Part shown: positions 36,805 through 62,684 of the stretch, piece by piece | How positions within the stretch are numbered: position 1 is the first letter of the stretch | Layout: every line of letters begins with the position of its first letter | Assembly (NCBI GenBank): GCA_029237695.1 | Contig: CM055279.1 | Span: forward strand, 60,833,530-60,897,529 | DNA length: 64,000 nt | Direction of reading: 5' to 3' | Origin: Conchocele bisecta | Taxonomy: Eukaryota > Mollusca > Bivalvia > Lucinida > Thyasiridae | The notes under the pieces: model-generated | What the model saw: only the letters and a program-made list of their open reading frames with translations | Database searches by the model: none | Told to the model about the DNA's origin: nothing | Translations under genes and position numbers: made by a program

Positions 36805-37576
36805 TTATTTAGGAACCGCCTCCAACTGCACAGGAGCCCCAATCGAAATTGGAGTTGGGGGATGTTTCGAAAGGTAGTTCAGCACACACAGGGTGCCCAC
36901 ATCTGCCAGACCACCACCAACAACCCACGGGATGATCCAGGTAGGAGCTACAGCAATCGGGTTCAACAGTGTTGAGGGCTGTTCCTGCGGAGATTGAACC
37001 CCCAACTCCAATTTCGATTGGGGCTCCAGCTCGGGAGTGGCTGGAACAGCCCTCAACGACTGTTTGGCCTCTCGAAGCTTGGCGAGTATTTTATCTTGTT
37101 TAACTTTTCGGGTGGCAGCCGCTGCTCTCCCAGCTGCCTGTCTTTTTTTTTTTTTTATGTCGTGCAACCGGAGCTTGCTCCTGTGGAGTTTGTTCCTGTG
37201 GAGCTAGCTCCCCCAACGTTGGAGGATCAATCAGAGTTGGAAGCGCTGCAATCGGGTTCAACAGTGTGGAGCAATCGGGGATTGCGGTTCCGTGACTCTC
37301 GCAGGTGCGTCTTGTGTCATCATTTTCTGAGCTTATAGTTCGTGGGCATATATGTCCAAATTGACAGTGCTTAGCCGTGGTCAACGCGGTTGTCAGCGGA
37401 GCTAAGTACATTCCAAACTTGAGATAAATTGAGCAGCAGGCTGTTCTAAGAGTGTGTCCTACAAAAGGGTCAGTCTCTAGATCACCAATCAACCCCGTGG
37501 TGTTTGGTATAGGGAGAATTGCACTGACAGCGGTAGCGTACAAATGAATAGCCGCCGCCCCAAAAGTTTTCGTCAT
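36805..37576 (-). pseudogene. Polinton basic/hydrophobic protein, split by homopolymer frameshift
   Basis: Two overlapping frames form one gene. 37,100-37,576 gives MTKTFGAAAIHLYATAVSAI, then CCSIYLKFGMYLAPLTTALT and AKHCQFGHICPRT, which looks membrane-associated and Cys/His-containing. 36,805-37,167 gives a Lys/Arg-rich stretch (RQAAGRAAAATRKVKQDK), a hydrophobic segment (IIPWVVGGGLADVGTLCVL) and a Pro-rich tail. The frame changes at a run of 13 A near 37,150. The tail carries PISIG and the middle STLLNPIA, both coded by palindromic DNA repeats at 36,839, 36,963 and 37,008. The start overlaps the preceding gene's stop as ATGA. Confidence 0.6.
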
Positions 37577-37902
37577 CTCAGCACATAACCTAGATTCAAT
37601 CGCGCATACATTTTATCAATCTCCGCATCTGACATCTTATCCACCTGACAAACTGAGAGACGCCTACCGAGATAATGCTCCGATTGTCCCCCAGCAACCA
37701 GCGCAGCTAGCCGCTCGCGTCGTGCAGCGTTTTCATTTTCTTTCATCCCACTGCCGCTCCTGAGCTGGTGCGGTTGGGCAGATACCGTATCGGCAGTCGT
37801 GTCAACAGGTGTTCCTACAGTTTCAGTCGTGTCGACAGTCGTACCGACAGTCGGCACGAGTGTTTCTTCCATTAGCTGATCGAGAAGTTCGTCGCAGTTC
37901 AT
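37573..37902 (-). CDS. Polinton 109-residue protein of unknown function
   Basis: MNCDELLDQLMEETLVPTVG, then a Thr/Val/Asp-rich repeat (VGTTVDTTETVGTPVDTTAD) and a charged C-terminal half ending DKMSDAEIDKMYARLNLGYV. The frame is open. The stop overlaps the next start (ATGA at 37,573-37,576). It has no counterpart in E2, where the region is deleted. Likely a small acidic accessory or scaffold protein, but that is a guess. Confidence 0.6.
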   Translation of the reverse strand: MNCDELLDQLMEETLVPTVGTTVDTTETVGTPVDTTADTVSAQPHQLRSGSGMKENENAARRERLAALVAGGQSEHYLGRRLSVCQVDKMSDAEIDKMYARLNLGYVLR

Positions 37903-38064
37903 TATTTTATTTATTCCAACAGTGTTGGGTGTACTATTCTGACAAGCCTCATAAGTTTAGTTTAACATATTGCCAAGTGCACCACCCGATACTGATGATC
38001 ACCGTTATGCTCGCAACAAAGCAATACTTGCTGAATAATTATTAAGCGGAGCAACTAATTGATT
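37903..38064. other. Short intergenic stretch
   Basis: No coding signal; leads into the GTTCAGCATT array. Confidence 0.4.
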
Positions 38065-38245
38065 CCCACATTGTTCAACATTTGTTCAGCATTTGTTCAG
38101 CATTGTTAAGCATTATTCAGCATTGCTCAGCATTGTTCAGCATTGTTAATCATTTGCTCAGCATTTGTTAAGTATTTGTTAAGCATTGTTCAGCAATTGC
38201 TCAGCATTGTTAAGCATTGCTCAGCAGTTACTAACGAACGTTAAG
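38065..38245. repeat. Iteron-like array of GTTCAGCATT
   Basis: About 15 imperfect copies of TTGTTCAGCATT or TTGCTCAGCATT / TTGTTAAGCATT at 10-12-bp spacing (for example 38,081-38,160). It is located between the ATPase stop and the 109-residue gene start and is AT-rich. Spacing close to one helical turn is typical of protein-binding iterons; no function is shown. Confidence 0.75.
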
Positions 38246-38259
38246 CAATTGCTCAGTAA

Positions 38260-38877
38260 TTAATTGATGACTTTGTAAGCAGTTGGTTGATCAGTCTTTA
38301 GCAGTAGCTTGGCGTGCTTAGTTTCCGAAAGCATCTGTCGAACCTCCAGGCGCTCCTCGCGCGTTGGGATAACGTCGTTCTCTCGAAGACAGTCATCGAA
38401 TGAGTCTCGGTCCTTGCAGTGAAAGAGGGCGACCCATTTCGTTTGCTCGCGCAGATCCTGGAGGACGGCGTTGTACTTGTACGAAAATGCGAGCTCGGAA
38501 AGCATGTCCTTCTTTTTGGTTATCGCCGCCTTGGCCGAGTAGTCGTCAATCACGTATAGGGTGGGCTCGCCCTGGGATCTTTGGTATCAACCACGCAGCC
38601 AATCGTGAAGCCTTTCACCGGGGTCAATAACGTATACCTCGGGGTTGTCCCATATCCACGGGCGCCGCTGATAAGTATCGTTGAGCGGCACAGTGGGACA
38701 CATGATCACAATGTGTCGAAAGACATCACGGTAGGACCCCTCGAGCAAGTCGAGGATGAAAACCGTTTTTCCGCATCCTGTCTGCCCACATATTATGGCA
38801 GAGTGGGCATCTTTCGGTAGAGTTACATCTTTAGATTGATTTATTAAATCAGTAGAGCGCTGAGACGTATCGGCCAT
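38260..38877 (-). pseudogene. ATP: Polinton genome-packaging ATPase (FtsK/HerA, A32-like)
   Basis: About 205 residues. Walker A is GQTGCGKTVFILDLLEGSY (residue ~30); Walker B is LYVIDDYSA; downstream FSYKYNAVLQDLREQTKWV has the pattern of A32-type packaging ATPases. It would pump element DNA into the capsid. A single in-frame TGA at 38,587-38,589 splits it; the frame is otherwise continuous. The ATG (38,877) lies inside the end of the major capsid gene (29-bp overlap), conserved in E2. Confidence 0.88.
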
Positions 38878-40056
38878 CTTCGATATTGAGTTGTGCGTCT
38901 GTAATTATATATAAGTACACGTTCAATGGCCCAGCTCCATCCGCCTCTTTGGTTATTTGGATCGTCACACCCTCACTAGCGTTCTCAACTTGGCGTCCAC
39001 TACCGTGCATTTGGTCGTCGTCGCTGGCTCGCATGTCTAGCCATAACGCGTATGTAGTCAGGAACTCCGCGAGGGAGACGTCCGAGAGCTGTAGGTCTTT
39101 GGCAACGGCGGCAACCTACGGGGAGCGCTTAGAGCCGGCAGCAAACTGCTTTCTGACTTCGTCCCACTGCTGGTGTGCGCGAAGACCCGCGCTGTAGAGT
39201 TGATTGGGGACTCCCTCGATCGTCACCTCGACCTTTATGATTTTGGGGTTATATAATTTGTCGGTTTTTCTAACCCCGAGCGCGAACCGACCCTCCTCGA
39301 ACAGCATCAGTATACCTTTCATCGAGCGGGTGGGTACGTTGACGTTAATATTCCACAATGTGTCGCTTTTGTCTTTCGTCATCTTGCGGTGGCGAAGAAC
39401 TCGGTCGTAAAGTATGGCAACGCGCCAGGTGTACTGGGATCTGATCAATCGCGCGAGTTCGTACTCCAGCGAAACATTGTTGATCGTATACGTCGATGCC
39501 ATGTCAGTGGCTATGAGAGCTCGGCCGTAGTCGTTGAACGTTAGTTCGTATTCGAGGCGGTCCGCCAAAGCACTCTGATAGTAGGGCATGTGACTCTCCA
39601 GCAACTCAAAGTCGAGCGGGATGTAGAAGCTGTTGCCGTAAGCGGCCGCGATCGCGTTGTCGCTCGCGACGTTATCTGCCTTGTTACCAGCCCCGATTCT
39701 AAGACTGGTTACGTTCTTGTTTCGGCTGGTGTCAATACCCTGATAGACCGCATTTTCGCGCTCTTGTGCCGTCTTCCACAGGTCCTGATAGCAATGGTAG
39801 ACGTCGCTGTCGTCGATCGACATCACCTCATTACGAGAAATCGTTATCATGGTCTTCTTGACGATGGCGCAACCCAGGTTCTGAACGACGGTTCGGTCCG
39901 CGTCCGTCGACGTCAGCGAAATAATGAAAGCGAGGCGAACAGTCCCCGGCACAATGACGTCGCTAGCTCCGAGGTTGGGGAAGCGGACTAAGAGCTGCTG
40001 GTTCTGGTCGATCGTCGATGGGTTGTTCGTAATAACGACGCTCTGTCTCACGCATT
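38849..40056 (-). pseudogene. MCP: Polinton major capsid protein (double jelly-roll)
   Basis: About 400 residues. The opening strand is LLVRFPNLGASDVIVPGTVR, with FYIPLDFELLESHMPYYQSA and LEYELTFNDYGRAL in the middle, a motif pattern of Polinton capsid proteins; then RSMKGILMLFEEGRF and a C-terminal strand AGPLNVYLYIITDAQLNIED-type. Breaks: the first ~24 codons seen in E2 are deleted, leaving an ATG out of frame (40,056), and GAG is changed to TAG at about 39,116-39,118. The frame then continues to 38,849. Divergent from the coiled-coil gene, with 61 bp between. Confidence 0.82.
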
Positions 40057-40117
40057 TTCAGTGAAACTAAATACTCTATTAAACCTGTATGGTTTTGTCT
40101 TTAATACATCGTTAAAG

Positions 40118-41346
40118 ATGGCTGATTACGATATTGACATGGACGAATTCGGCCGAGCCGATTACCTCGATGATGATGATGACATGGATAACGATAACGA
40201 AACACCCGTCATGGAGACTCCAGTTCCAATCCAATCGCGATTGGATGAATTGGGGGAAATAGGTGGCGCTACCAACACCAGTAGTCTAAGTCAGGAATTA
40301 GTCAAGTCTGCTGTAGACGACTACTATAACCATCTGTCAGAAAAAGGTATGGTCCCATCTGTTGGCCGCGACTACTCCAAGTTCGAATTGGATCAGTGCG
40401 GTAGGTTGCGACTAAAAGCATAAAATGTCCCGATCATCAACATGAGCACCGGAAAACCCCTATCGCTGAGCACTATTGCTGGAGGTCGGGGCGTGTCCAA
40501 ATCGTAAGGGACGAACTAGGATTCGTAGATTGGAATCGTGGTAAAACAATTATGCCGGCCAGCGCTGTAGAGACCCTAAATTCTACCGACGAAACGATGG
40601 CGAAGACGGCCGCCGCGATTGAATCTGTCGAGCTCAGCAAGGTCCCTCGAGTAGCCACCGACACTATTCACACAATGGAGCTCAGAGAAAGAGAGATAGA
40701 TGGAATACTCAGCACGATGGATGACCCACCGTTACCTCGATAGGGCTATGCAAACAGTCCTGGGTGAATTGGTCCATAACCTCTCCAAACTGACGGCGCT
40801 GGATGAACATAATGCACTAGACGAAAGAAAACTTGGGGAAGTCCGTGATGATAGAGAATCTACCGAGCGGATCACCGAATGCCTGCAGTCGTTGCGGGAT
40901 GAAAGAGCAGCTCGCTTGGAGGCTGCATCGGCTTACCGTGAGGCTCTCTGCACCCTAATAAGTCGGATCCGCGAAACAATCTCGAGAGTTCTGCACGAGG
41001 AGACGACACTCGGTGAGCGTATTCGCACTCTGTTCAGAGAGCAGGGCGTCACAATAGTAAGCATCCTCACTGCTGTCGGCATGACTATTTGAAAGATATT
41101 TCTAGCTTTCACTGGCGGTGTGGGGCCAAGGAGTGGGTAATAAAACATCCAAAAGCCCTCGCCAGTTTCCTGGCTAAATTAGCCGAAAAGGCGGCCGCCG
41201 CGCTGCCTGGGCTGATCGGGGGTATCGTCTCCTACTTGTTATCTATATTATCAAAAACGGCCGGATGGCTCGCCGAGAATGCTTGGGCTCTAATCTGTCT
41301 CCTACTATTCTCCGCCCGAGAGTTCCTAAAACCAAAGCACAAATAG
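40118..41346 (+). pseudogene. Polinton coiled-coil/membrane protein
   Basis: Starts MADYDIDMDEFGRADYLDDD, an acidic head, then a conserved SVGRDYSKFELD segment, a coiled-coil middle (RDDRESTERITECLQSLRDE) and a hydrophobic C-terminus (AALPGLIGGIVSYLLSILSK, WLAENAWALICLL). About 430 residues when whole. Similar proteins occur in marine invertebrate Polinton-like loci, from memory; the role is probably structural. Breaks: TAA at 40,421-40,423, TGA near 41,090, frame changes near 40,490 and 40,740, and loss of the Pro-Ala linker that E2 retains. A palindrome at 40,231-40,244 adds eight codons that are absent from E2. Confidence 0.65.
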
Positions 41347-42828
41347 TCCGATCGCCATGAGGGTGATGACGAGCCCTAATTTCTCCTGCTCGTGAGTTGT
41401 GACACTAGTTCCCGCTCCTGTTCCAATTCTCCCTCAACACTGTTGAACGCGATTGGATTGGGGGAACTGGTGGAACTTGATGGTGCATCCAATTCTTCCC
41501 TCAACACTGTTGAACGCGATTGGTGTGTTGATGATTGAATTGGGGGTACTGGGGTGGGTGTTTGTGGTTTTATGAAATCTTTTTCAAATTTATTTGAATT
41601 TCCAACCTCAACACCCAATCGAGATTGGATGAACCCGGGCCTCTTGGGGGTGGGGGGGGGAGCTTGATGAAACCCGTGTTCAAGTTCCCGTTGTGGCCGA
41701 TTTTTTGATTGGCGGTGGCGACTACGATCTGATTATTGTAACCGTCAACCGGGTCGTCTCGTAGTATCATATTGCTCGGCGCCATACAAAAACCTATTCC
41801 AAATGCGTAGTCTACTGGGATGCGGGCAGTCTGCAAAACGTCTTGATAATTCCTGGATCGCCTTCTGGAGGTCCACCTTAGCTGAGATGACGTCCTCGAC
41901 AAGTGCTAAGAACTGTTTTTGCGCGTCAAACGCCGTTTCCGTGCCCAGTATAGCACTACGCGCTTGCTTCCGTGAGGCGAGGATGGCCCAGACGTATACG
42001 CGAATGGAGTCGTTGAGGCGAATAACCCCAGCCTGCGTGAACCCCAGACCCTTATCTAACATAAATGTACCCCACGCGTCCTGGACCTCAGCAGCCTGCT
42101 GTATGTAATCGCCGTGAGCTCGTTTCGGAGGTAACCAATTGCAGGATGAGATGCCGCAGTGCCGACCTCCAGACAATTCCGGCCCGAAGGTCATCGTCGC
42201 GGGGTCAAAATTCCCGGCGTTCCGACTGACAATCTAGTCGCCGGAGTGATCGTGTCTAAAATCAGTCTGCGTCCAATTCCCGGACTGGCCCCGAATGAGA
42301 ACGTCCCCGAGGCCAGTGCTGGTAGGAAATGCTTTCTGTCTCCAGTCCGCGTCTTTTGAAACGTTAAATTCGTTACACAGTGAGTCTTTCGAACGCCCTA
42401 CGGTCGTATGCGTTGGAAATGGGATTCCAGGCGTCGTCTTGAGGTAATGGAATACCTAGTTATTTGATAATCCTCAGTATAGTGTAGTACGTGTGAAAGT
42501 TATAAACGGCCCTCAATAAGGGATACTCCGCAACCAGATGGTCCTCATAAGAAACCCCACATCCGGCTGTTGCGCACCATACGGCGAAGTTGAGCTGATT
42601 CTGCCAACACTGCATCGGTGTTGCTTTCCACCCGTTCACGGCCTCCATTGTTGTAATCTTGGGCAGCCTATATTGTTCAAAGATGTCGGGGAAGTTGGTT
42701 TGAAAGCCTTTTCCGCCGCGAACTTGGACAGTGGTGTGCACAAACCCACCAATGGTGTTCTTTTGAGTGTATACACCTCCAACCAGGTACTTTGCATTAG
42801 AATTAAAGCGAAATGGTTTGGTATCCAT
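41326..42828 (-). pseudogene. Polinton large virion-type protein (QNQLxFAVWCAT family)
   Basis: Counterpart of the 416-residue protein of E2. The N-terminus MDTKPFRFNSNAKYLVGGVY is followed by CWQNQLNFAVWCATAGCGVS and AVYNFHTYYTILRIIK, later by GFTQAGVIRLNDSIRVYVWA. I recall this family from invertebrate Polinton-like ORFs without a known function; abundance and position suggest a particle protein. Breaks: TAA at 42,460-42,462, a rearranged stretch at 42,190-42,340, a one-base insertion near 41,865 and a C-run frameshift near 41,650. The tail contains three palindromic repeats (41,431, 41,498, 41,615). A hydrophobic LGLV..LW tail frame ends at 41,326, overlapping the coiled-coil gene's end. 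Confidence 0.65.
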
Positions 42829-42842
42829 TGAAAGATATTATT

Positions 42843-43484
42843 ATGTTTGCTACTATCACTAATGTTCAAAAAGAGAGTTGTGAACTTCAAAAGTCAATCG
42901 ACAACTGCTGCGGAAAACGCCGGGTAGGCCTTAGAGCAATCACCTTCACGGTTGGGTGGGGGAATGTGGGGAAGAGCGAAGGGTTTGGCTATGTGAAGGA
43001 TGGACGCTCAGTAGGTGTAAAGCTGCCTCCCGGACTGTGGAGTTTTAGACAGGTCAAAGATTTTGTCACCTCAGAGCTTGACGGTAAAGCCAACCTCATA
43101 GTATCGAAGGCTACCGGGCTCGCAACAATGACCATCGGCCCAGACAGCCGGGTAAGGATCTCCCCGACGTTGGGTATTCGACTCGGTTTTACATCGGTGA
43201 TAACCCGGTGGACTTCGCCTTCACGAAATCTCTCAGGGTGCACCTGGATCGGGTGAACGCATCGTACAACATGGTAGACGGATCCCCCAGCACATTACTG
43301 AAAATCGTGCAAGCCAGTGATTGTTTCTTTGGGGTGACTGTGACCTTAGACTTCCCACACCCCGTGATGAAAATTTTGGAATCGGGACATATCCACGAAT
43401 TTACGGTCTCTATGCTTGATGATCAAGCGAGAAAGTTGAATAACTATTACCCGATTTCGGTCGTCTTAGAAATTTCAAATTAAT
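42843..43484 (+). pseudogene. Polinton penton-like minor capsid protein candidate
   Basis: Starts MFATITNVQKESCELQKSID. It has an LPPGLWSFRQVKDFVTSELD segment and RISPTLGIRLGF, a pattern like the PPG..-..LGF stretch of single jelly-roll minor capsid proteins in animal Polinton-like viruses, and a C-terminal strand HEFTVSMLDDQARKLNNYYP then ISVVLEISN. About 215 residues. A one-base deletion near 43,185 shifts the frame. Its ATG lies 14 bp from the divergent ATG of the large virion-type gene, also in E2. Assignment rests on motif layout only. Confidence 0.5.
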
Positions 43485-43500
43485 TCAAAGAATTAAACGC

Positions 43501-44394
43501 ATGTTCGTAATAGAATTTATAACAACCAACATTATGAGTATATACGGACCAGGTAGTTCTTCCAATTCCAATCGCGTTTGGGTTAACAACCCAATCGAGA
43601 TTGGAGCTCCCGACGGATCCAACCCCACAGGGGATTTTTTAACTACCGGAGAAACAAAGGCCTTGATCAATACGACTATATCGGGGGCCACAAACGCAAT
43701 TCACAGGAGTATAGCACAGCTTAGAGTAGACGTCCTGACGGCGACTGCACAAGTTCGCGAAGAGGCACATACAGGACTTAAAGATCTCGACGGAAAAATA
43801 ATCCAAGTTGGGGAAGAGGATCATGCAGCACTTACTGAACTAGGCCGGAAAATAACCGAATTTTCCGATAAACCGAAACGTGTTCGTAGAGCCATTAACA
43901 AAGCACTTGAGGAGACCTCTGAAAAGGTTCGTGTTGAGTCCCATACCGGTAACGCGCAGCTTGCCGCATTGTTGGACACAATTGTAGAGCAGTTTAAGTT
44001 ATTGCAAGCACAAAAACGTGTCATCTCAGTTAGTGCTGAGAAGCGGGGCCCATTGAATGAGGGTCTCTATGAATATTCATTTGGTGCCAAAGCGAGCAAT
44101 AAATATGGGGGATACGCCATGACAGCTCCAGATACACTTCTCCGAATGGCGGTCTGCTCGGTTAATTATAATGGTAAATATGTGGGCGTGGTCGCCGTGA
44201 ATCTCGTACTGAATGGGGAAGAACGGGCGATTGGAGTCAATAAACTCGCTGGAGATAGTTCCGCGGTGATTTTGTTCGCCGGTGACGATCCAATTAGACT
44301 TTCCGAAGGTAGTGTTATTAACTTTGTTACAAAAATCGCTGACCCAGCGAGTACTTCCACTATTGTGACATTGTTAATTGAACTTGATTTGTAA
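43501..44394 (+). CDS. Polinton fibre-like protein, intact
   Basis: 297 residues, open throughout. The N-terminal tail SIYGPGSSSNSNRVWVNNP ... PDGSNPTGD is followed by a long helical coiled coil (residues ~55-170; REEAHTGLKDLDGKIIQVGE, ALEETSEKVRVESHTGN). Last comes a beta-rich C-terminal head from AEKRGPLNEGLYEYSFGAKA to TIVTLLIELDL. Tail, coiled coil and globular head is the layout of a trimeric attachment fibre; I infer that role. The start could be ATG 43,501 or 43,534. Two palindromes (43,568-43,581 and 43,591-43,604) encode part of the N-terminal tail (NNPIEIG). In E2 the head is missing. Confidence 0.7.
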   Translation: MFVIEFITTNIMSIYGPGSSSNSNRVWVNNPIEIGAPDGSNPTGDFLTTGETKALINTTISGATNAIHRSIAQLRVDVLTATAQVREEAHTGLKDLDGKIIQVGEEDHAALTELGRKITEFSDKPKRVRRAINKALEETSEKVRVESHTGNAQLAALLDTIVEQFKLLQAQKRVISVSAEKRGPLNEGLYEYSFGAKASNKYGGYAMTAPDTLLRMAVCSVNYNGKYVGVVAVNLVLNGEERAIGVNKLAGDSSAVILFAGDDPIRLSEGSVINFVTKIADPASTSTIVTLLIELDL

Positions 44395-44403
44395 AATTTA
44401 AAT

Positions 44404-45092
44404 ATGAACGAATCACCGCTCCTGAGCACGCTTCCAATCTCGATTGGTTTTGGCGAAAGAAGTTCAGATTTTAGGTTGGAAAATATCGTAGAGATGCAGG
44501 ATATTCTAAAACAAAAGGGGGAAACTCGGAAAATGAATGCTAGTAAATAAAGACGTGCGGCAAACATAGTGGAGGGGGCGAGCGCCGTGCTGGCAGTAAT
44601 TTATATAATGGGTGGGGCCGGAACAGCCGCATTATTGTCTACAGTCGTGGCAATTCCCATTGCGGGGGGTTTGAGCAGGGTAGTCGCTGGGGCGGGGTTG
44701 TTGTGTATGGCGTTTAGAGTAGTGGGGAGAAAATTCGAAAATAAAAGTAGAAAGCACGACAGAATATCGGTTCTCGCAAGGTCTAAGAAAAATAGCATCG
44801 ACGTTATCGTGTCCAAAGCGTTGGCCGATAACAATATATCAGACGCTGAATTTGAGTCGGTGGTGGAGGAGATGTCTCGATATGAGGATTTAAAACAACT
44901 AAGGCGCACGCCACCCTTCCCAAGATTGAGAATACTGATTGGGATAAATTTAATTTAAAACTGGGAGATAAAGTGGGGGAAAATGTTACAACACCACCTC
45001 CCTCAACTCCGTTGAACCCAATACCATCCAATTTCTCCAATCTCGATTGGGGTGTTGATGAATTTGGGTTGGCCAATTGGAGGGAATTGTGA
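44404..45092 (+). pseudogene. Polinton membrane protein with KHDRISVLARSK domain
   Basis: Starts MNESPLLSTLPISIGFGERS. The hydrophobic centre GGAGTAALLSTVVAIPIAGG and VVAGAGLLCMAF is followed by KHDRISVLARSKKNSIDVIV and NNISDAEFESVVEEMSRYED. This pattern (Gly-rich membrane segment, KHD.I..LA.SK, ISD.EF) recurs in Polinton-like loci of cnidarians and molluscs as I remember it; function unknown. Breaks: an in-frame TAA near 44,548 and a frame change near 44,905. After that the tail runs to 45,092 and includes the palindrome at 45,037-45,050. The N-terminal PISIG is coded by the palindrome at 44,434. Confidence 0.6.
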
Positions 45093-45411
45093 TATTCGTA
45101 TTCGCGTATTTGCATCGGCAGCAGGATATCCTCCACCATACAGTCCAGCTGTTCCGACGGCCCCGCCGTACGGAACATAAACATTTTTGCCCCCACCCCC
45201 CCCCCCCCCCCCCCCGCCCCCCTTACGCACCACCCGCGTTTATGCACCCATTTGCCACCATACCACTAAAGCTTTGTGTGTACAAGGACATTTTCGTCCC
45301 AGCAATGAAATGGTGTTGATTTCTCGCATATAAACCTAACCTCGTTGTGCAATAACGGGTGTAGTCTGTATTTCTTATATAGTAATTTAAATCTTGATTC
45401 ATTTTATTACA
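45093..45411. other. Spacer with C-run
   Basis: Contains a C homopolymer tract (45,188-45,221). A Gly-rich frame on the minus strand reads through this tract and is probably spurious. Confidence 0.5.
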
Positions 45412-53811: not shown

Positions 53812-54195
53812 TGATCACGTGGTTACAACAACAACAACAAGTACTGAAACTTCCAGAAGCCCTCCGATTCAAAGAACGTATTATTTTATTTTGTCCTTAT
53901 AATGTAACGGATTTTTAGGAAATATGGCGCATAAAACGCGTCTTGTTGAGCTGCATTTGGTGGTCACGGCCCAATCTTCTGTCTACAGACACGGAAATCG
54001 ATTCTTCGCAAAAACGACAGAAGTATGCGCCGCACTCTCGGACCACCAAATGCAGCTCATGAAGACGCGTTTGCTGTGCCATATTTCATCAACATATTTA
54101 GGAAAATATCAAATAATAATTACTTTGGAGTGGGCGCGCTTTCAACATTTTCAGCCATTGTTGTTGCCGTTGTAACCACGTGATCATGCACCTTG
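53803..54195. mobile_element. MITE with ATGATCACGTGG ends, copy 2
   Basis: The left end CAATGTGTATGATCACGTGG pairs with CCACGTGATCATGCACCTTG. The inner arms ACGCGTCTTGTTGAGCTGCA and TGCAGCTCATGAAGACGCGT match 27,604-28,000. Confidence 0.8.
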
Positions 54196-54267
54196 ATTAT
54201 ATGGTCATACAAATATTGGGGATCGACTTCAAGCATGTTTGTGGCCAATACACATATTACTGATCCT

Positions 54268-54528
54268 ACTGCTTTTGGGAGGGGGCCAAGTGATTCTGAT
54301 GTGGCGAGGACATGGCATCAGATCAGGATTATTCTGATTTCAAAGTTGACTATATAGTTCTTTATTGTAAATATTCACTTCTGATTTTGGGATTTTCCCC
54401 CATTTGTACACGTACTTGAACATGTACATGCACAGGTAATATATTGGATTTAGTGTTAAACCCATTGATCGCGCCTTAAATGACTTTAGCTGTTGATAGG
54501 CCGTTAAACCCCAACAAACAAACAAACA
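54268..54528 (+). mobile_element. SINE-like element, copy 2
   Basis: GGGAGGGGGCCAAGTGATTC to GTTGATAGGCCGTTAAACCC and CAACAAACAAACAAACA. Longer than copy 1 because of an insert with TACACGTACTTGAACATGTA. Confidence 0.65.
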
Positions 54529-54914
54529 TTATTGCAATTTAGAGCATTGATCGACTCCATGCATATTTGTGACAGACCTTGCACAAATTGAGATGAAACT
54601 TTTGGTTGTCACTGATAATATAAAGAAGTAATCAAGTGACAATATAATGAAGTGATATTATTAGACATTATATCGACTTACAATACATATTTTTTAGATA
54701 TCGCATTTTATATTTCGCGTCGATTCTCATCCACCTCGTATAATCCATGATCATACCTATATCGTTGATAATGTACCTCGCCATTATCTTAAGTGAATCA
54801 GACTGTGCCAGTAATACACTCGAATTGTGTCCAGTCTGTTTATGCTGGTGTTTATTTATCAATGTCGATATCTGCTCTGGCGGTGAAGCTGTACATACAA
54901 ATGTATATATGTGT
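54529..54914. other. Gene-free stretch
   Basis: No supported feature. Frames overlapping 54,668-55,120 are dominated by the tandem repeat that follows. Confidence 0.4.
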
Positions 54915-55158
54915 TTTCTTGGTACTACTCTGGATGGCTTGACACAAACATGTATGGATAGGAACTCCCCTGTGGATGGAAATATGGTGTCTAAAGGTAC
55001 TACACTGGATGGCTCGACACTAACATGTATGTATTGAAACTCCCCTGTGGATGGAAATATGGTGTCTGAAGGTACTACTCTGGGTGGCTTGACAGAAACA
55101 TGTATGGATTGGAACTCCACTGTGGATGTACACAGGTGTCTGAAGGTGGTACTACTCT
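54915..55158. repeat. ~71-bp tandem repeat, three to four units
   Basis: GGTACTACTCTGGATGGCTT, GACACAAACATGTATGGAT and AACTCCCCTGTGGATGGAAA recur with ~71-bp spacing. Polinton E2 begins immediately after it at AGTAGTATATAGGGAGT. Confidence 0.75.
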
Positions 55159-55200
55159 AGTAGTATATAGGGAGTCAAAATGATACCACCAACGATTGTG
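55159..55200 (+). repeat. Left terminal repeat of E2
   Basis: AGTAGTATATAGGGAGTCAA, then AATGATACCACCAACGATTG. The first ~35 bp align with the E1 ends; beyond that the sequences diverge, so the terminal repeat belongs to a sister family. The partner lies outside the window. Confidence 0.8.
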
Positions 55201-55203
55201 TCG

Positions 55204-55837
55204 TTATTGAGATGGATTGTAACTCCCACCACCAACAAAACGTGGTGGTATTGAATGATAAAAAGTGTTATTGTAGTCCCAATTATATTGGAGATTGACG
55301 GTAGCGGTATGGGCCTCAGCACGAACCTTTTCAGAGGTGTCCTCGAGTGCTTTGTTCGCGGCTCTACGAACACGTTTCAGTTTATCGGAAACTTTGGTTA
55401 TTTTCCCGCCTAGTTCAGTAAGTACTGCATGAACCTCTGAGCGCAACACCCCATAAGCCTCCGTAAGGGCCGCCTTGTGGTCGTCTCGTGCTTTCTCAAT
55501 ACCCGTTCGGACTGCCTCAATCCCCAACCGGGCCTCTTCCCGAAATTCGGCTATTTTTCCACCTAGTTCGTTTAGTTCTGTATGTGTTTCTTCACGACTT
55601 TGTGTAGTCACAGCCAGGGCATATACTTTAAGCTGTGATAGTAGACTCTTGTGAATCTCGTCCGTGGCCGCCGATATAGTTCTATATTTTTCCGGTAGTT
55701 AAAAAATCGCCTGTGGGGTTGGATCCGTCGGGAGGTCCAATCTCGATTGGGTTGTTACTCGGATTATTTGAATTGGAAGAACTACCTGGTCCGTATATAC
55801 TGATTTTCAATACTGTTGATAATTCTATTACGAACAT
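55204..55837 (-). pseudogene. Fibre-like protein of E2, head domain missing
   Basis: ATG at 55,837 (MFVIEL). The N-terminal tail matches E1 (SNNPIEIGPPDGSNPTGD, palindrome at 55,738-55,751). A stop follows near 55,693, then a longer coiled coil than in E1 (ELGGKIAEFREEARLGIEAV, KALEDTSEKVRAEAHTA). After AHTA the similarity to E1 ends; instead of the globular head there are ~30 unrelated residues (FYHSIPPRFVGGGSYNPSQ) running into the terminal repeat. A CCAATTATATTGG word sits at the junction (55,279-55,291). The head was lost when the end of the element was rearranged. Confidence 0.7.
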
Positions 55838-55866
55838 GCGTTTAATTCTAATTTTCTTAAAATTAA

Positions 55867-56592
55867 TTAATTTGACATTTCTAGGACGACCGAAATCGGG
55901 TAATAGTTATTCAACTTTCACGCTTGATCATCAAGAATAGAGACCGTAAATTCATGGACATGTCCCGATTCCAAAACTTTCATCTCGGGGTGTGGGAAGT
56001 CTAAGGTCACAGTCTCCTCAAAGAAACAGTCGCTGGCGGGCACAGTTTATAGTAATGTGCTGGGAGCGCCGTCTAACGTGTTACACGATGTGTTCAGCTG
56101 ACCCAGGTGCACCCGGAGTCTTTTTGTGAAGGCAAAGTTCATCGGGGTCTCGCCGCGGTGCTCGCCCATCTCAAACCCTTCAGCGTCGTTGTAAGGGGGT
56201 GATATTTTAAATCCTAACATTGAGGCCAACCCCGGGGAGATCGTTAATCTTTTATCAACAGACAATGTCGCAAGCCCCGTGGCTTTTGAGATTGCGAGAG
56301 TGGCCATACCAGAAATCCTTGCCGCGATCAAATCTTGGAGGTCTCCGAAACCCCAAAGGCCAGGAAGTAATGCGACATTTGATTCCTGAAGGCGTCTCTC
56401 TGCTTCTGCACGACCGAAGCCCTCTATATCTACATTATCTCCGGATAGGATAGCCTGGACCGTTTCGATGTTTTTCCACCCAACCGTTAACGTGATTGAT
56501 CTGAGACCAACCCGCCGTTTTTCGCAGCAGTTCTCGATTGACTTCTGAAGTTCACAACTCTCTTGTTTAACATTAGTGATAGTAGCAAACAT
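55867..56592 (-). pseudogene. Penton-like minor capsid candidate of E2
   Basis: MFATITNVKQESCELQKSIE at the N-terminus, then LLPGLWGFGDLQDLIAARIS, LTISPGLASMLGFKI and a C-terminal LNNYYPISVVLEMSN. The first ~45 and last ~60 residues are close to E1, but the centre (GDNVDIEGFGRAEAERRLQE) is quite different. Breaks are two stops, TAA near 56,047 and TGA near 55,936, in an otherwise continuous frame. Divergent from the next gene, with 14 bp between start codons. Confidence 0.5.
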
Positions 56593-56606
56593 AATAATAT
56601 CTTTCA

Positions 56607-57857
56607 ATGGATACCAAAGCATTTAGCTTTAATTATAATGCAAAGTACCTGGTCGGAGGTGTATACACACACAAAGACGTTGTTAACCCCCTTGTACACC
56701 CAACTGTAACAGTTAGACCGGACAGTGGCTTTACCACCAACATGTTTGAGAAATATGTAGTTCCAAAGACTACTAGTCAAGATGTAATACTAAGCTGGGA
56801 TTTTTCCCATATGAACTTCTGGCAGAACCAGCTACATTTCGCTGTATGGTGCGCAACAACCGGATGTGGAGTTTCACATAAAGACCATCTGACATCTAAG
56901 AATGTCATGCTCCGAAGTGTCTACAACTTTCATGTGTATTATACTATTAGGAGGATTATCAAAGAACTAGATATTCCACTACCTCAAGACGACGGCTGGG
57001 ATCCCATTTCCAGCACATACGACCGTAAGGCGTTCGAAAGATTGTGTAACGAATTTGGGGTACCAAAAGACGCGGACTGGAGACAGAAAGTATACATCTC
57101 AACCAACAGTTTAGGGTTAGTTCACCTTAAAGGCTTAGTTAGTGGTGGGCATCTTGATAAAGTCCCTGTATATTTCTCAGGGTTGTGGAGTGATAGCGGA
57201 GCTACCCCACCACCAGTTAGACAAATGACAACATGGACTAAATATAATTATAAGTTGAATACGATGACGTTCGGTGATGAAGTGCTTGGAGGGCTTGCGT
57301 GTAAAGACGTTTATTGTCATTGGCTACCAACTAAAATAGCCCACGTGGAATACCTAGACGAGGGTGATACTCCACAGATGCGAAATGCGTGGACCACATT
57401 TATGTTAGATAAAAGCACTGGATTTACACAGGGCGGGGTTATTCGCCTCAACGACTCCATTCGCGTACACGTCTGGGCAATCCTCGCCTCACAGAAGCAA
57501 ACGCGCAGTGCTATACTGGGCACGGGAACGGCGTTTGATGTACAAAAACAATTATTGGCACTTGTCGAGGAAGTCATCTCAGCTAAGGTGGACCTCCAGA
57601 AGGCGATCCAGAATTATCAAGACGTTTTGCAGACTGCCCGCACCCCAGTAGACTACGAATTTGGAATAGGTCTTTATGTGGCGCCGAGCAATATGATACT
57701 ACGAGACGACCCGGTTGACGGTTACAATAATCAGATCGCAGTCGCCACCGCCAATCAAAAAATAGGCCACAACGGGAACGTGAACACGGGTATCATCAAA
57801 CTCCCCACCCCCCACCCCCAAGAGGCCCGGGTTCATCCAATCTCGATTGGGAGTTGA
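56607..57857 (+). CDS. Large virion-type protein of E2, open frame of 416 residues
   Basis: MDTKAFSFNYNAKYLVGGVY, then NFWQNQLHFAVWCATTGCGV, SVYNFHVYYTIRRIIKELDI, DADWRQKVYISTNSLGLVHL, TGFTQGGVIRLNDSIRVHVW, AILGTGTAFDVQKQLLALVE and DPVDGYNNQIAVATANQKIG. The longest intact gene in the window. I recall similar proteins in invertebrate Polinton-like loci; no function is established to my knowledge. The frame ends at a palindrome (HPISIGS, 57,837-57,850). In another frame the sequence goes on to a hydrophobic tail (LGLVAALMVIGLLALWF, ending 58,115) that E1 also preserves, so the native protein may be longer. Some blocks are near-identical to E1, others unalignable. Confidence 0.75.
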   Translation: MDTKAFSFNYNAKYLVGGVYTHKDVVNPLVHPTVTVRPDSGFTTNMFEKYVVPKTTSQDVILSWDFSHMNFWQNQLHFAVWCATTGCGVSHKDHLTSKNVMLRSVYNFHVYYTIRRIIKELDIPLPQDDGWDPISSTYDRKAFERLCNEFGVPKDADWRQKVYISTNSLGLVHLKGLVSGGHLDKVPVYFSGLWSDSGATPPPVRQMTTWTKYNYKLNTMTFGDEVLGGLACKDVYCHWLPTKIAHVEYLDEGDTPQMRNAWTTFMLDKSTGFTQGGVIRLNDSIRVHVWAILASQKQTRSAILGTGTAFDVQKQLLALVEEVISAKVDLQKAIQNYQDVLQTARTPVDYEFGIGLYVAPSNMILRDDPVDGYNNQIAVATANQKIGHNGNVNTGIIKLPTPHPQEARVHPISIGS

Positions 57858-58115
57858 GGTTGGAAATTCAAATAATTTTGAAAAAGATTTCATAAAACCG
57901 CAAGCACCCACCCTAGTACCCCCAATCCAATCGCGATTGGAAGAATTGGACGCACCATCAAGTTCCACCAATCCAATCATCAACACCAATCGCAGATTGG
58001 GTGAAATTGGAAGAATTTGAACAGGAGCGGGAAGTAGTGCCACAACCCACGAGGAGGAGAAATTAGGGCTCGTCGCTGCCCTCATGGTGATAGGATTACT
58101 CGCGCTTTGGTTTTA
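57858..58115 (+). pseudogene. Hydrophobic tail frame after the large virion-type protein
   Basis: In the frame after the CCAATCTCGATTGG at 57,837, codons read through two more palindromes (57,927, 57,986), meet a TGA at about 58,018 and end in LGLVAALMVIGLLALWF at 58,113-58,115. E1 has a matching LGLVITLMAIGLFVLWF. The substitutions between copies keep hydrophobicity, which argues for a real membrane anchor. It overlaps the end of the convergent coiled-coil gene. Confidence 0.45.
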
Positions 58116-59399
58116 GGAACTATCGGGCGAAGAACAGTAGGAGACCGGCGATCGCCACGATTAGAGCCCAAGCATTCTCGGCGAGCCATCCGGCCGTTTT
58201 TGATAATGTAGATAACAAGTAGGAAACGATACTTCCGATCAGTCCAGGTAGTGCGGCAGCAGCCTTTTCGGCTAATTTAGTCAGGAGACAGGCGAGGGCT
58301 TTTAGTTGTTTCTTTACCCACTCCTTATCTCCACCGGATGATGGCGCGGGTGCTGGCGCGGGTGCTGGCGCGGGTGCTGGCGTGGGTGCAGTCGCACCGC
58401 CAGTGAAAGCTAGAACTATGGTTGATATAGTCATGCCGACAGCTGCGAGGATGCTTACTATCGTGACGCCCTGCTCTCTGAACAGAGTGCGAAGACGCTC
58501 ACCGAGTGTCGTGTCCTCGTGCAGAACCCTCGAGATTGTTTCGCGGATCCGACTGATTTGGGTGCGGAGAGCCTCACGGCAAGCCGATGCAGCCTCTAAG
58601 CGAGCTTCTCTTTCATCCTGCAAAGACCGCAGTCGTTCGGTGATCAGCTCGGTAGATTCTCTATCGTCACTGCTAGCGCGATATGTTCATCCAGCGCCGA
58701 GAGTTTGGAGAGGTTAAGGACCAGTTCGCCCCGGACCGTTTGCAGAGCCTTATCGAGTCCCCGGAGTTCCCGAAGAGGTAACGGTGGGTCATCGATAGAC
58801 CCTTGGTCGAGGTTGAGTATTCCGTCTATTTCGCTGAACGTGGTCTCCACCGTGCGAATAGCGCCGGTGGCTACTCTAGGGACCTCGCTGAGCTCAACAG
58901 TTTCTATCGCGGCGGCCGTCTTCGCCATCGTTTCGACGGTAGAATGTAGGGCCTCTACAGCGCGGTCGGACATAATTGTTTTACCAGGCTTCCAATCCAC
59001 GAATCCTAGTTCGCTCCTTATGATTTGACCACCACCCCGACTTCCGGCAATGATGCTCAGCGCTAGGGGTTTCCCGGTCCTCATGTTGACGATCTGGACA
59101 TTTGATGCTTTTAGTCGCAACCTACCGCTCAGATCCAATTCGAACTTGGAGTAGTCGCGGCCTACAGATGGGACCGCACCCTTTTCTACCAAATTGTTGT
59201 AGTAGTCGTCTACAGCTGACTCGAGTAATTCCCGACTTAGACTAATGGTGTTGGTAGCGCCACCTATTTCCTCGACGGCTGGAGTCTCTATGAAGGGTGT
59301 TTCGTCGAAGGTTGCGAGGGAATCCTCGAAGTCATCATCATCACCATCGAGGTAATCGTCTCTGCCGATTTCATCCATGTCAATATCGTAATCAGCCAT
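58096..59399 (-). pseudogene. Coiled-coil/membrane protein of E2
   Basis: ATG at 59,399: MADYDIDMDEIGRDDYLDGD acidic head; SVGRDYSKFELDLSGRLRLK; VNMRTGKPLALSIIAGSRGG; coiled coil around LQDEREARLEAASACREALR; hydrophobic VTIVSILAAVGMTISTIVLA; (AP)n linker at 58,335-58,395; then KAAAALPGLIGSIVSYLLST and NAWALIVAIAGLLLFFAR. Breaks: a frameshift near 58,680 and a TAG at 58,120-58,122 where E1 has GAG. It lacks the palindrome that E1 carries at 40,231. Likely a particle or membrane structural protein; unproven. Confidence 0.65.
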
Positions 59400-59477
59400 C
59401 ACTATAATTATATAATAATTATGTATTAAAGACAAAACCATACGGGTTTAATAGAGGTATTTAGTTTCACTGAAAAT
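59400..59477. promoter_or_regulatory. Bidirectional promoter candidate, MCP / coiled-coil gene
   Basis: 78 bp between two divergent ATGs, AT-rich (TATAATTATATAATAATTAT) and partly conserved in E1 (40,057-40,117: ATGGTTTTGTCTTTAATACA, TTAGTTTCACTG). No other room for promoters, so transcription in both directions must start here or further in. Confidence 0.45.
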
Positions 59478-60770
59478 ATGTCTTCGAGTCAATACGGTCG
59501 CAAACTCAATCCATACCGCAGACTGCGTGAGCCCCTAGGGGCAAAAGGCGTGAGACAGAGTGTTGTTATTACCAACAACCCATCGACGATCGACCAGAAC
59601 CAGCAGCTCTTAGTCCGCTTCCCCAACCTCGGAGCTAGCGACGTCATTGTGCCGGGAACTGTTCGCCTCGCTTTCACTATTTCGCTGACGTCGACGGACG
59701 CGGACCGAACCGTCGTTCAGAACCTGGGTTGCGCCATCGTCAAGAAGACCATGATAAAGATTTCTGGTAATGAGGTGATGTCGATCGACGACAGCAACGT
59801 CTACCATTGCTACCAGGACCTGTGGAAGACGGTGCAAGAGCGCGAAAATGCGGTCTATCAGGGTATTGACACCAGCCGAAATAGGAACGTAACCAGACTT
59901 ATAATCGGGGCTGGTGACAAGGCAGATAACGTCGCGAGCGACAACGCGATCGCGGCCGCTTACGGCAACCGCTTCTACATCCCACTCGACTATGAGTTGC
60001 TGGAGAGTCACATGCTCTACTATCAGAGTGTTTTGGAGCACTGCCTGGAATAAGAACTAACGTTCAACGACTACGGCCGAGCTCTCATAGCCACCGACAT
60101 GGCATCGAAGTATACGATTGACAATGTGTCGCTGGAGTACGACATGGTCACGATGCCCGAACTCTCGCGATTGATCAGATCCCAGTATGCCGGGCGCGTT
60201 GCCATACTTTACGACCGAGTTCTTCGCCACCGCAAGATGACGAAAGACAAAAGCGACACATTGTGGAATATTAATGTCAACGTACCCGCCCGATCGATGA
60301 AAGGTATACTGATGCTGTTTGAGGAGGGTCGGTTCGCGCTCGGGGCTAGAAAAACCGACAAATTCTATAATCCCAAAATCACAAAGGTAGAGGTGACGAT
60401 CGAGGGAGTCCCAATCAACTCTACAGCGCGGTCTTCGCGCACTACCAGCAGTGGGACGAAGTCAGAAAGCAGTTTGCTTCCGGCTCTAAGCGCTCCACGG
60501 AGGTTGCCGCGGTTGCCAAAGACCTGCAGCTCTCGGACGTCTCCTCGCGGAGTTCCTGACTACCAATACGCGTTATGGCTAGACATGCGAGCCAGCGACG
60601 ACGACCAAATGCACGGTAGTGGACGCCAAGTTGAGAACGCTAGTGAGGGTTTGACGATCCAGATAACCAAAGAGGCGGATGGAGCTGGGCCATTGAACGT
60701 GTACTTATATATAATTACAGACGCACAACTCAACATCGAAGATGGTCGATACGTCTCAGCACTCTACTGA
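59478..60770 (+). pseudogene. MCP: Major capsid protein of E2 (double jelly-roll)
   Basis: Complete N-terminus absent from E1: MSSSQYGRKLNPYRRLREPL, then QLLVRFPNLGASDVIVPGTV, YIPLDYELLESHM, and after the break LTFNDYGRAL, RSMKGILMLFEEGRF and a C-terminal NVYLYIITDAQLNIEDGRY. Breaks: TAA at 60,051-60,053, two one-base deletions near 60,410-60,440 and another near 60,530. The stop overlaps the ATPase ATG (60,742) as in E1. Confidence 0.82.
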
Positions 60771-61327
60771 TTTAATAAAAAAAATCATCTAATGATTTGT
60801 TAATAAAATATCAACACCAATTCACGATTGGAGATTTAACTCTACCGAAAGATGCCCACTCTGCCATAATATGTGGGCAGACAGAATGCGGAAAAACGGT
60901 TTTCATCCTGGACTTGCTCGAGGGGTCCTATCGCAATGCCTTTCGACACATTGTGATCCTGTGTCCCACTGTGCGGCACAACGATACTTATCAACGGTGC
61001 CCGTGGATATGGGCCGACCCAGAGATATACGTCTTTGACACCGGCGACAGGCTTCACGATTGCTTGCGTGTCTTCTACCAAATATTCCAGGGCGAGCCCA
61101 TCCTCCAACGGCGTTCGGGGTTGCACGACATAAAAACCCAAAAAGACAGGCAGCTTGGCGGGCAGCGGCTGCCACCCGAAAAGTTAAACAAGATAAAATA
61201 CTCGCCGAGCTTCGAGAGGCCAAACGATCGTTGCAATCCCCGATTGCTGTACCTGCTGTTGAAACAGCAAAACACCCGGTGGTTCCACATCCGAAGGCAG
61301 CTGTTTCTTCCCCAATCCACGAATTGA
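60742..61327 (+). pseudogene. ATP: Packaging ATPase of E2, truncated and fused
   Basis: The original ATG at 60,742 soon meets a frameshift at an A-run and a palindromic insert (60,817-60,831; peptide HQFTIG) where E1 reads straight through. The open frame from 60,797 gives LTLPKDAHSAIICGQTECGK, with Glu in place of the second Gly of Walker A, and continues to about 61,118 (QGEPILQR). Then it joins directly to the middle of the basic-protein gene (LHDIKTQKDRQL). Walker B and the C-terminal half are deleted. It cannot be a working ATPase. Confidence 0.8.
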
Positions 61328-61505
61328 AACAGGAGAGGCAGTTGGAAGGCAATCCCCGATTGCTGTAGCTCCTACCTGGATCATCCCGTGGGTTGTTGGT
61401 GGTCTGGCAGTTGTGGTCAGGTCACCCTGTGTGTCCAGATTGAAAAAACAACCCCCATCAATTCACGAATTGGAGTTGGAGGCGGTTCCGAAGAAAGTTA
61501 CGAAA
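61120..61505 (+). pseudogene. Remnant of the basic protein gene in E2
   Basis: Corresponds to 36,810-37,167 of E1 (DNA match from GTTGCACGACATAAAAACCC to GTTGGAGGCGGTTCC). The basic stretch and the TGGATCATCCCGTGGGTTGT hydrophobic part are recognisable, but frames are lost. Contains four palindrome variants (61,233, 61,312, 61,349, 61,459). Confidence 0.6.
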
Positions 61506-61571
61506 CCGATTGCGCCCCATTTAAACGTTGATCGCGATCCCTTTTATATGCAATAATTATAGTTATCAACA

Positions 61572-61805
61572 ATGGCTGAAAACGATGGTAAAATGATAGT
61601 GAATGCGCTTTATCACGCCGTGGTGATATCAGGTCTCAGTATCGGGTTTGCTCGACTATCAAAGATGGCCTTAAGAGGGCCCGCTCCCAAATTGGACATG
61701 ACTGTGAGAGACGTATGGCTCGTGACCTTAGATGTAGCGGCCGCAGTTGGGACTCGAGATTATCTAATTAAAGCTGGAATTCTACCCTCTAATATATGGA
61801 AATAA
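61572..61805 (+). CDS. Polinton 77-residue protein of E2, intact
   Basis: MAENDGKMIVNALYHAVVIS ... AVGTRDYLIKAGILPSNIWK. 70/77 identical to 36,496-36,729. The upstream DNA (TTTTATATGCAATAATTATA then GTTATCAACA before ATG) is also conserved and TATA-like. It overlaps the next start by 10 bp. Unknown function. Confidence 0.8.
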   Translation: MAENDGKMIVNALYHAVVISGLSIGFARLSKMALRGPAPKLDMTVRDVWLVTLDVAAAVGTRDYLIKAGILPSNIWK

Positions 61806-62274
61806 TTGCTTCGATCGCAGTAATAGTAGGTGGTGCAGTCGTGAGCGCATTGGCGTTCAGCGGTAGCAACTATTTATTATCGTTAATTCCTAAAAACTCG
61901 GACGTGGATGAGGAGCGCAAGATCACGATTTAGCTGAAGAACAACTCAAGAGCGCAGACGCAGCATGGTCTAAAAAACGAACCGCCCATCTGGAATGGGT
62001 CAACGAAGAGCTTCGCCGCGAGAATCACGCATCGCAAACTTTCCAGAACGTTGAAGAAGCCAACCGCGAGTACGCACTGGCATATCCACAGAGAAGTCTC
62101 AATCCAATAAAATTGGGGCTGGATCCCGAGCCCCAACTTTCAGATTTCTATGTACAGTCAGAGGCTCAAAAAGACCGCGAGATCGCGTTCATCGTCGTAG
62201 GGATGGTTGCAACGGGTCTCGTCAGCTACTATATTGGAAAAGCAATAAGCAAAAGCAATAAGCAAAAGCAATAA
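61796..62274 (+). pseudogene. Two-helix membrane protein of E2
   Basis: ATG at 61,796: MEIIASIAVIVGGAVVSALA (helix 1). After a one-base deletion near 61,922 the frame continues with LAEEQLKSADAAWSKKRTAH, EELRRENHASQTFQNVEEAN, LDPEPQLSDFYVQ and helix 2, IAFIVVGMVATGLVSYYIG, then a Lys/Ser/Gln tail coded by AAGCAAAAGCAAT repeats. A CCAATAAAATTGG word (62,104-62,116) adds four codons compared with E1. About 155 residues when whole. Topology suggests a bitopic or hairpin membrane protein with a charged loop. Confidence 0.65.
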
Positions 62275-62321
62275 CTATTTTAAAAAATTGTTTTTAAATA
62301 TATATATATATATATAGAACG

Positions 62322-62684
62322 ATGTTAGTTGACGAGCTTTATTTTGCTCTGATCGATGTAGGCTACACAGCGCTTAAACATCGTTTAGCGGGCGCAAAGG
62401 GTCTGATCCGTCTGGCCCGAGATTCTCTCGAGACGTGGCGCGAGGACGAAAAAGCGGCCACCCTTTTCGCAAAGCGGATGTTAGATTCCTCCATCAACAC
62501 TGTTGAATTAGATTCCTCCGAGTTCCTTCAGAACTTAACCTCCAATTGTGATTGGGGTTGCAGCGAAACTTCCAACAAAGGTTTATTATTAACGACGCAG
62601 TAACCGGACGATCTGGCGAGGGAATGTTGGAGATTGTCCGATCTATTAGAATACCTCGCATACGATGGACACACGCAAACTTGA
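62322..62684 (+). pseudogene. 115-residue protein of E2
   Basis: MLVDELYFALIDVGYTALKH, then RLAGAKGLIRLARDSLETWR and EDEKAATLFAKR; then inserts coded by TCAACACTGTTGA (62,494-62,506; INTV) and CCAATTGTGATTGG (62,542-62,555) that E1 lacks. A TAA at 62,601-62,603 cuts it (CAG TAA against CAG TTA in E1). The remainder ends at TGA 62,682-62,684, 20 bp into the integrase gene. Upstream (TA)n at 62,302-62,316 is a likely promoter element. Confidence 0.6.

Follow-up and report, generated by a model that had tools for sequence, protein, structure and literature searches.

Short hairpin palindromes that may spread as micro-elements through the coding linkers of a Polinton family in Conchocele bisecta

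Here we analyse a stretch of 64,000 nucleotides from the bivalve Conchocele bisecta (C15:60833530-60897529, contig CM055279.1, within a 1.89 Gb assembly; hereafter the window), in which two related Polintons, E1 and E2, carry many copies of a short palindrome, CCAATCNCGATTGG, and of near forms of it. We give a probability of about 0.55 to the explanation that a family of hairpin micro-elements spreads within this Polinton family and settles in coding linkers. The palindromes are in excess over chance and strongly associated with Polintons; non-orthologous sites have units of 28-29 bp in common, gains are mostly of net 12 nt, all reading frames are used, and units merge with one another. The two elements of the window are:

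34380-51018, Polinton E1, with INT, ATPase, MCP, accessory open reading frames (ORFs) and PolB.
54601-64000, Polinton E2, related to E1 and inverted; it extends beyond the window, and its left limit is approximate.

Two further elements, E3 (on C1; in stretches L003 and L028) and E4 (on C4; in L006 and L029), were chance finds among background stretches and were compared piecewise; palindromes are present in all four elements examined. A preliminary description of the window, made from its letters, had listed 15 places of CCAATCNCGATTGG or near forms. All 15 are present in the sequence, 11 of them with perfect CCAAT-n4-ATTGG arms, and one start is off by a single base, 55738 being in fact 55737. 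The shorter core reported at 61233 and 61349 is likewise there, but a third copy of that variant, at 37271, had been missed. Two more sites that fit the arms, 62104 (CCAATAAAATTGG) and 55279 (CCAATTATATTGG), were absent from that list, and a second type of palindrome, [TC]CAACANTGTTG[AG], had been missed altogether; it has four copies in E1 (three TCAACA..TGTTGA and one CCAACAGTGTTGG), one in E2 and none in the host part of the window. The sites are:

36839-36852, CCAATCGAAATTGG; its 29-bp context, 36833-36861, is repeated inverted at 36999-37027.
37008-37021, CCAATTTCGATTGG; in the same ORF as 36839 (36805-37203, minus strand), in a different frame (PQSKLE vs. PISIG).
40231-40244, CCAATCGCGATTGG; in an acidic N-terminal linker (PIQSRLDELG), with a 28-bp unit in common with 57922-57949.
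41615-41628, CCAATCGAGATTGG; orthologue of 57837.
43568-43581, the imperfect CCAATCGCGTTTGG, with one arm mismatch; together with 43591 it forms a 39-bp imperfect inverted repeat.
43591-43604, CCAATCGAGATTGG; close to the N-terminus of ORF 43444-44394 (PIEIG), orthologue of 55737.
44434-44447, CCAATCTCGATTGG; right after the end of ORF 43444-44394, possibly non-coding.
45037-45050, CCAATCTCGATTGG; in ORF 44804-45265 (minus strand; PQSRLE), with a TTCAAC..GTTGA variant adjacent at 45000-45019.
55737-55750, CCAATCTCGATTGG; E2 counterpart of 43591.
57837-57850, CCAATCTCGATTGG; E2 counterpart of 41615, at the overlap of ORF 57784-58020 with the 3' end of ORF 56598-57857.
57927-57940, CCAATCGCGATTGG; the E1 orthologue has a TCAACACTGTTGA unit in its place.
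57986-58000, CCAATCGCAGATTGG; perfect arms with a 5-nt centre.
60817-60831, CCAATTCACGATTGG; perfect arms with a 5-nt centre, near the ATPase start; in E2, E3 and E4, not in E1.
61459-61472, CAATTCACGAATTG; E1 has another palindrome (36839) at this place.
62104-62116, CCAATAAAATTGG; in E2 only.
62542-62555, CCAATTGTGATTGG; empty in E1, with differing variants at the same place in E3 and E4.
61233-61247, variant GCAATCCCCGATTGC; 61233-61251 and 61349-61367 are identical.
61349-61363, variant GCAATCCCCGATTGC.
37271-37285, variant GCAATCGGGGATTGC.
36963-36975, second palindrome TCAACAGTGTTGA, with CAATCGGG directly before it.
41434-41446, second palindrome TCAACACTGTTGA; 41422-41456 and 41488-41523 match in 35/36 columns.
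41501-41513, second palindrome TCAACACTGTTGA.
62494-62506, second palindrome TCAACACTGTTGA; E3 and E4 have AATCCCCCAGGATTGG and E1 has no palindrome.

Since E1 and E2 are related and inverted, 41615/57837 and 43591/55737 are inherited pairs, so the independent sites number fewer than 15; most other E1 and E2 sites differ or have no alignable counterpart.

The palindromes far exceed shuffled and reversed-pattern controls, which bears out the earlier claim that chance does not give so many. At up to two mismatches, the window holds 25 strand matches vs. 1.5 in dinucleotide shuffles. With the arms fixed and the loop free (CCAAT-n3-6-ATTGG), seven copies lie in E1 (34380-45600; shuffle mean 0.06) and eight in E2 (54601-63700; shuffle mean 0.04), and none is found in 34,379 host bases, in the PolB side of E1 (45601-51018) or in 51019-54600. 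Genome-wide, CCAATCNCGATTGG gives 9191 forward and 9183 reverse matches vs. 9 and 10 for the reversed pattern, a control that has the same letters written backwards, is also a dyad and has the same composition; the former are strand matches, CGCG-centred copies being counted on both strands, so that the places are fewer, and all genome-wide repeat counts are lower bounds. Outside the palindromes, single arms show no clear excess (31 vs. 26.6; 22 vs. 19.9), so the unit is the palindrome and not CCAAT; for the same reason a reading of the linkers as CCAAT-rich was rejected.

The excess follows the Polintons, whose load is very large: an MCP marker matches 2921+2851 times genome-wide at up to three mismatches (control 0), that is, about 5,770 copies. 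Co-localisation was scored for the 63 distinct motif places among the 100 matches listed (C1:0-6.33 Mb), using exact marker places only. Measured against 24 exact MCP markers, 45 of the 63 places are no more than 8 kb from a marker (a uniform spread gives 3.8, and at most 12 in 5000 trials), and a palindrome place lies this near to 22 of the markers; when 13 exact places of a second marker are added, 53 of 63 fall within 8 kb (4.8 expected, maximum 13). Oriented along the element, the listed places peak at about -2.6 to -2.0 and +2.1 to +2.4 kb from the MCP marker, corresponding in E1 to about 36.8-37.4 and 41.5-41.8 kb (aligned regions R3 and R6). The reversed pattern and this marker co-localisation are the strong controls. 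Host DNA does not reach the density of the elements: an exact copy occurs neither in the 256,266 bases of 26 non-Polinton stretches nor in the host part of the window, a zero that taken alone is a weak control, since uniform spread would give only about one or two copies in the 26 stretches. With relaxed arms (one mismatch), 32 sites occur in 260 kb of host stretches vs. 55 in about 47 kb of element. One of the host stretches, L024, holds a single non-motif dyad, CCAATGGGCATTGG. The motif mostly tracks the Polinton family, but it is not special to E1 and E2, occurring in thousands of copies genome-wide.

Sequence beyond the arms is also shared between places that are not orthologous. E1 (leaving PolB aside) and E2 were also searched blindly for internal matches; once orthologous ones are excluded, 24 of the 25 top rows (of 73) are palindrome units, as are about 50 of the 60 printed rows; the top row is something separate, a tandem repeat. 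The 29-bp unit around 36839 recurs inverted with 29/29 matching positions within one ORF, and 40226-40253 resembles 57922-57949 (27/28) in different genes of different elements, E1 and E2; the flank scores of these two units, 15 and 12, exceed 11, the maximum of 20,000 random pairs. Units are nested as well, and CAATCGSG followed by TTCAACAGTGTTGA, of the second palindrome, stands in separate contexts, a merger of the sort known from yeast GC clusters (PMC4478555). Over 26 perfect-arm sites in the four elements, the arms CCAAT/ATTGG are kept and the loops range from 3 to 6 nt, the commonest (complements merged) being CGAG (7) and CGCG (5). With arms kept and loops variable, the data suit a hairpin more readily than a dyad recognised by a rigid dimer.

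Gains were read from eight filled/empty pairs among the four elements, hand-picked as readable, with the harder differences in two hot regions left out. The filled form is longer by a net 12 nt in six of the eight pairs, and by 9 and 24 nt in the remaining two. Polarity was assigned by parsimony, assuming that E1/E2 and E3/E4 are sister pairs, as judged from identity and not from a tree (E3 and E4 are 95.7% identical across 4.8 kb; in their first aligned block E1 and E2 are identical in 2183 of 2375 columns). Three gains were thus polarised. In E4 near L006:6995, GACT is replaced by CCCAATCTCGATTGGA (net +12; E1, E2 and E3 empty), and the empty form of this site has 1513+1510 genome-wide matches at up to three mismatches. 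In the INT linker of E4, near L006:4806, CCGT is replaced by TGCAATCGCCGATTGC (net +12; E1, E2 and E3 again empty). E2, finally, gained 62104 (net +12), a palindrome that E1, E3 and E4 are without. At 62542 there are three different variants, in E2, E3 and E4, and none in E1. The gain in INT qualifies the initial statement that this gene is free of palindromes, which holds within the window but not in E4, where the linker carries the variant GCAATCGCCGATTGC. Diverged forms of the 40231 site occur in E3 and E4, and none in E2; its insert is not seen in the 10 homologous proteins that span the region (of 12 found, P0128 and P0130 have no sequence there), in a linker that aligns poorly. CAAC stands in 21 of 110 flank sides vs. 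3.6 expected, a count inflated by orthologous copies and by the CAAC-type family, so we do not conclude on a target site.

As first described, the palindromes lie inside or at the edges of genes: most are in ORFs, several of which are supported solely by E1/E2 conservation. Where copies stand in ORFs they encode PI[SE]IG, QS[RK]L or N..W-type peptides, and hence use all three frames. Twice, two frames are used inside one ORF: by 36839 and 37008, and by the 41434 and 41501 units (FNSVEG vs. STVLRE).

How such units could multiply may be outlined as follows. The family would be defined by CCAAT/ATTGG arms (with variants GCAAT/ATTGC and CAATT/AATTG, and a second family with TCAAC/GTTGA) around a short variable loop, and units of about 12-36 bp would be copied between sites, all in a single Polinton family. 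Protein-primed replication is established for PolB elements of the Polinton kind; it would expose single strands, which may fold back or switch template at hairpins and so lay a hairpin at a new place, a copying step that we infer. Selection would retain the in-frame products in tolerant, flexible protein linkers, and Polinton amplification would then spread the palindromes across the genome. Only tentatively do we go further and suggest a minimal selfish hairpin of 14 bp that has neither a gene nor a target duplication, spreads in coding sequence through strand switching templated by the hairpin, typically adds four codons per event and thereby acts as a mutator that diversifies protein linkers. 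Should this hold, mobile palindromes need be neither transposon-sized nor limited to non-coding DNA, and a 14-bp hairpin can spread inside genes and lengthen proteins by four codons per step. With its thousands of related copies, this one genome offers natural replicates for the question of how hairpins make insertions where replication is protein-primed.

Several observations weigh against hairpin spread. The eight pairs were chosen for their readability, and only four elements were compared. By eye, no target duplication is present in the eight filled/empty pairs, and no transposase-like gene was identified. Losses, judging from the alignments, probably occur too: of 60817 in E1, and of 40231 in E2, which may have lost a palindrome of which E1, E3 and E4 all hold forms. 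Ten of the 63 listed places are tied to neither marker. Furthermore, because copies mostly ride on an abundant Polinton family, the genome total reflects mainly passenger copying by Polinton amplification. Finally, empty alleles often hold an arm already, and this makes local palindrome completion a serious rival, one that we regard as rather improbable on balance. Under completion, no unit would move; a template switch during replication of hairpin-prone linkers would copy a CCAAT-like arm that is already there in inverted form, and palindromes would both arise and be renewed where they stand. An arm or part of one lies at or near the site in the empty allele in at least six filled/empty comparisons: CCAA at L028:2278, ATTGG at L029:1427, AATCG at L003:7565 and, at the sites of gain, ATTGG at the E4 counterpart of 62104, CCG..TTGC for the INT linker and GATTG five bases before L006:6995. 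Since arms are present also at both E4 gains, we weighted completion up and hairpin spread down. Different palindromes at one site among elements (62542; 36839/61459; 62494) agree with completion as well. Yet both arms are new at L006:6995, the old GATTG staying outside; identical arms recur at many unlinked sites, 28-29 bp are common to different places, and, as noted, single arms are not clearly enriched.

A functional DNA site appears unlikely. It would be a dyad to which a protein of the element or host binds, maintained in several copies because it serves packaging, transcription or replication, and linkers would tolerate it. The arms resemble CCAAT boxes, and a pair of them could presumably form paired NF-Y-like sites; the conserved arms, the several copies in each of the four elements and, among the matches listed, the two preferred regions relative to the MCP marker are what such a site would predict. 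The arms, however, stand 3 to 6 nt apart, the differences between sites are replacements of net +12 and not point changes, letters beyond the dyad are common to non-orthologous sites, placement varies among elements, and most copies lie within ORFs. It is still harder to see the palindrome as a codon by-product of a selected peptide motif that was duplicated: QSRL[DE]EL does recur at 40231 and 57927, but there are three peptide types across ORFs, both orientations are present, and the use of two frames within single ORFs, twice, is where this explanation fails. Chance or composition deserves hardly any credence, as the shuffles and the reversed pattern refute it, even though the G+C content of the elements is higher than that of the host. 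Hairpin spread within the Polinton family is the explanation that we favour.

Among known systems, compared here from parts of the papers cited, the micro-palindrome resembles mitochondrial GC clusters and Rickettsia palindromic elements and is a member of neither, since size, frame, compartment or flanking repeat sets it apart. In yeast mitochondria, the commonest GC clusters are 42 and 38 nt long, GC-rich, mostly intergenic and flanked by AG or ACT (PMC4478555). Like the palindromes described here, they are short hairpin units with fast presence/absence turnover, species differences confined to loops, and merger and shuffling (PMC4478555). Unlike them, our units measure about 12-36 bp, have about 57% G+C and belong to a virus-like element of the nucleus, in whose ORF linkers they lie; they sit on contigs of more than 100 Mb, mostly in ORFs, and are therefore neither mitochondrial nor intergenic, and no flanking repeat of the AG or ACT kind is seen by eye in the eight filled/empty pairs. 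The preliminary description had likened the palindromes to the multiplying elements of Rickettsia. The analogy is apt, as they behave as multiplying units and stand in frame in unrelated genes (with net +12, +9 and +24 here), but membership is excluded by size: the Rickettsia elements are about 150 bp long, and every one carries an ORF that encodes a conserved peptide (PMC10969869), and ours are 12-36 bp and use three frames. The closest viral parallel among the systems compared is pithovirus M1/M2 (PMC10664404), likewise palindromic, colonising a eukaryotic DNA virus and of unknown mobiliser; these differ in their terminal repeats of 54 and 47 bp, their intergenic position and a putative TA duplication. 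GC clusters and Rickettsia elements thus come closest by behaviour, and M1/M2 among viruses. PARCELs (PMC2996958) also combine coding sequence with dyad symmetry and are partly linked to mobile elements, but they are a tandem 25-residue repeat with a conserved pattern, and our palindromes are dispersed and encode no conserved peptide. Of the target-site duplication that marks a miniature inverted-repeat transposable element (MITE), the eight pairs show none by eye. Among the papers listed in a search of the open-licence PubMed Central literature, none was seen to report such repeats in Polintons, and the strings 'palindrom' and 'hairpin' are absent from the text of the Maverick paper PMC8097293.

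Regarding the elements themselves, the terminal inverted repeats of E1 (34380-34542 and 50856-51018) are 97% identical and start with AGTAGT, in keeping with the AGT ends described for Polintons/Mavericks in the portion of PMC8097293 consulted; inspected by eye, the ends of E1 show no clear 6-bp target duplication. Among the E1 proteins, PolB matches Pfam PF03175 (DNA_pol_B_2, E 3.6e-9), that is, a viral/organellar-type family B polymerase, and the ATPase matches PF04665 (Pox_A32, E 5.5e-6). MCP itself has no Pfam match; in the best 120 of 3447 hits its relatives are 65-75% identical; one of them, from the sea slug Elysia marginata, bears the name major capsid protein, and others are recorded as proteins in metagenome-assembled genomes (MAGs) of Candidatus Thiodiazotropha, which are clam symbionts. 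The INT pieces have no Pfam match either, and INT is a putative retroviral-type integrase, so named from its sequence. Pfam scans put no name to any accessory protein submitted, and a protein search with ORF 36805-37203 gave no match. Relatives sought with MCP (as a single protein and as a 20-row alignment) and with INT in viral_contigs and genome_contigs were limited to L001, a 5.1 kb contig recorded as an Oligoflexia MAG and without palindromes; a 23-base motif pattern had no matches in viral_contigs. Part of a Polinton integrase (residues 61-130, at 83% identity) is present on L001, which is probably animal DNA in an Oligoflexia MAG.

The PolB DNA of E1 and E4 (45831-48719; L006:1215-4110) is about 65% identical and the rest about 83-89%, and in E2 a PolB end (63701-64000) adjoins INT in opposite orientation, whereas in E1 PolB lies at the other end. 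This low identity and the changed position and orientation point to an apparent exchange of PolB from one Polinton to another. A subtelomeric placement, suggested by E3 and E4 lying near the starts of C1 and C4, was considered and dropped, since the window is at C15:60.8 Mb and markers occur along the listed part of C1. The second marker, matched exactly, is denser towards the start of C1: of the 100 matches listed, 45 are in the first 28.1 Mb and the others extend up to 118 Mb.

Other repeats in and around the elements were also seen. Directly left of E1 (33252-34215) there are ACGGAACGGA-type repeats together with repeats of 70-103 nt, and upstream of the ATPase ORF, at 38071-38236, TTCAGCATTG-type units are repeated imperfectly in tandem. 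At the left edge of E2 (54901-55128) stand three tandem copies of a repeat of 75-78 nt, and between both Polintons 53274-53777 holds tandem C2H2 zinc-finger repeats of 84 nt. In E3 and E4, L028:4595-5923 and L029:3838-4999, which correspond to the middle of ORF 43444-44394, are made up of many diverged internal repeats.

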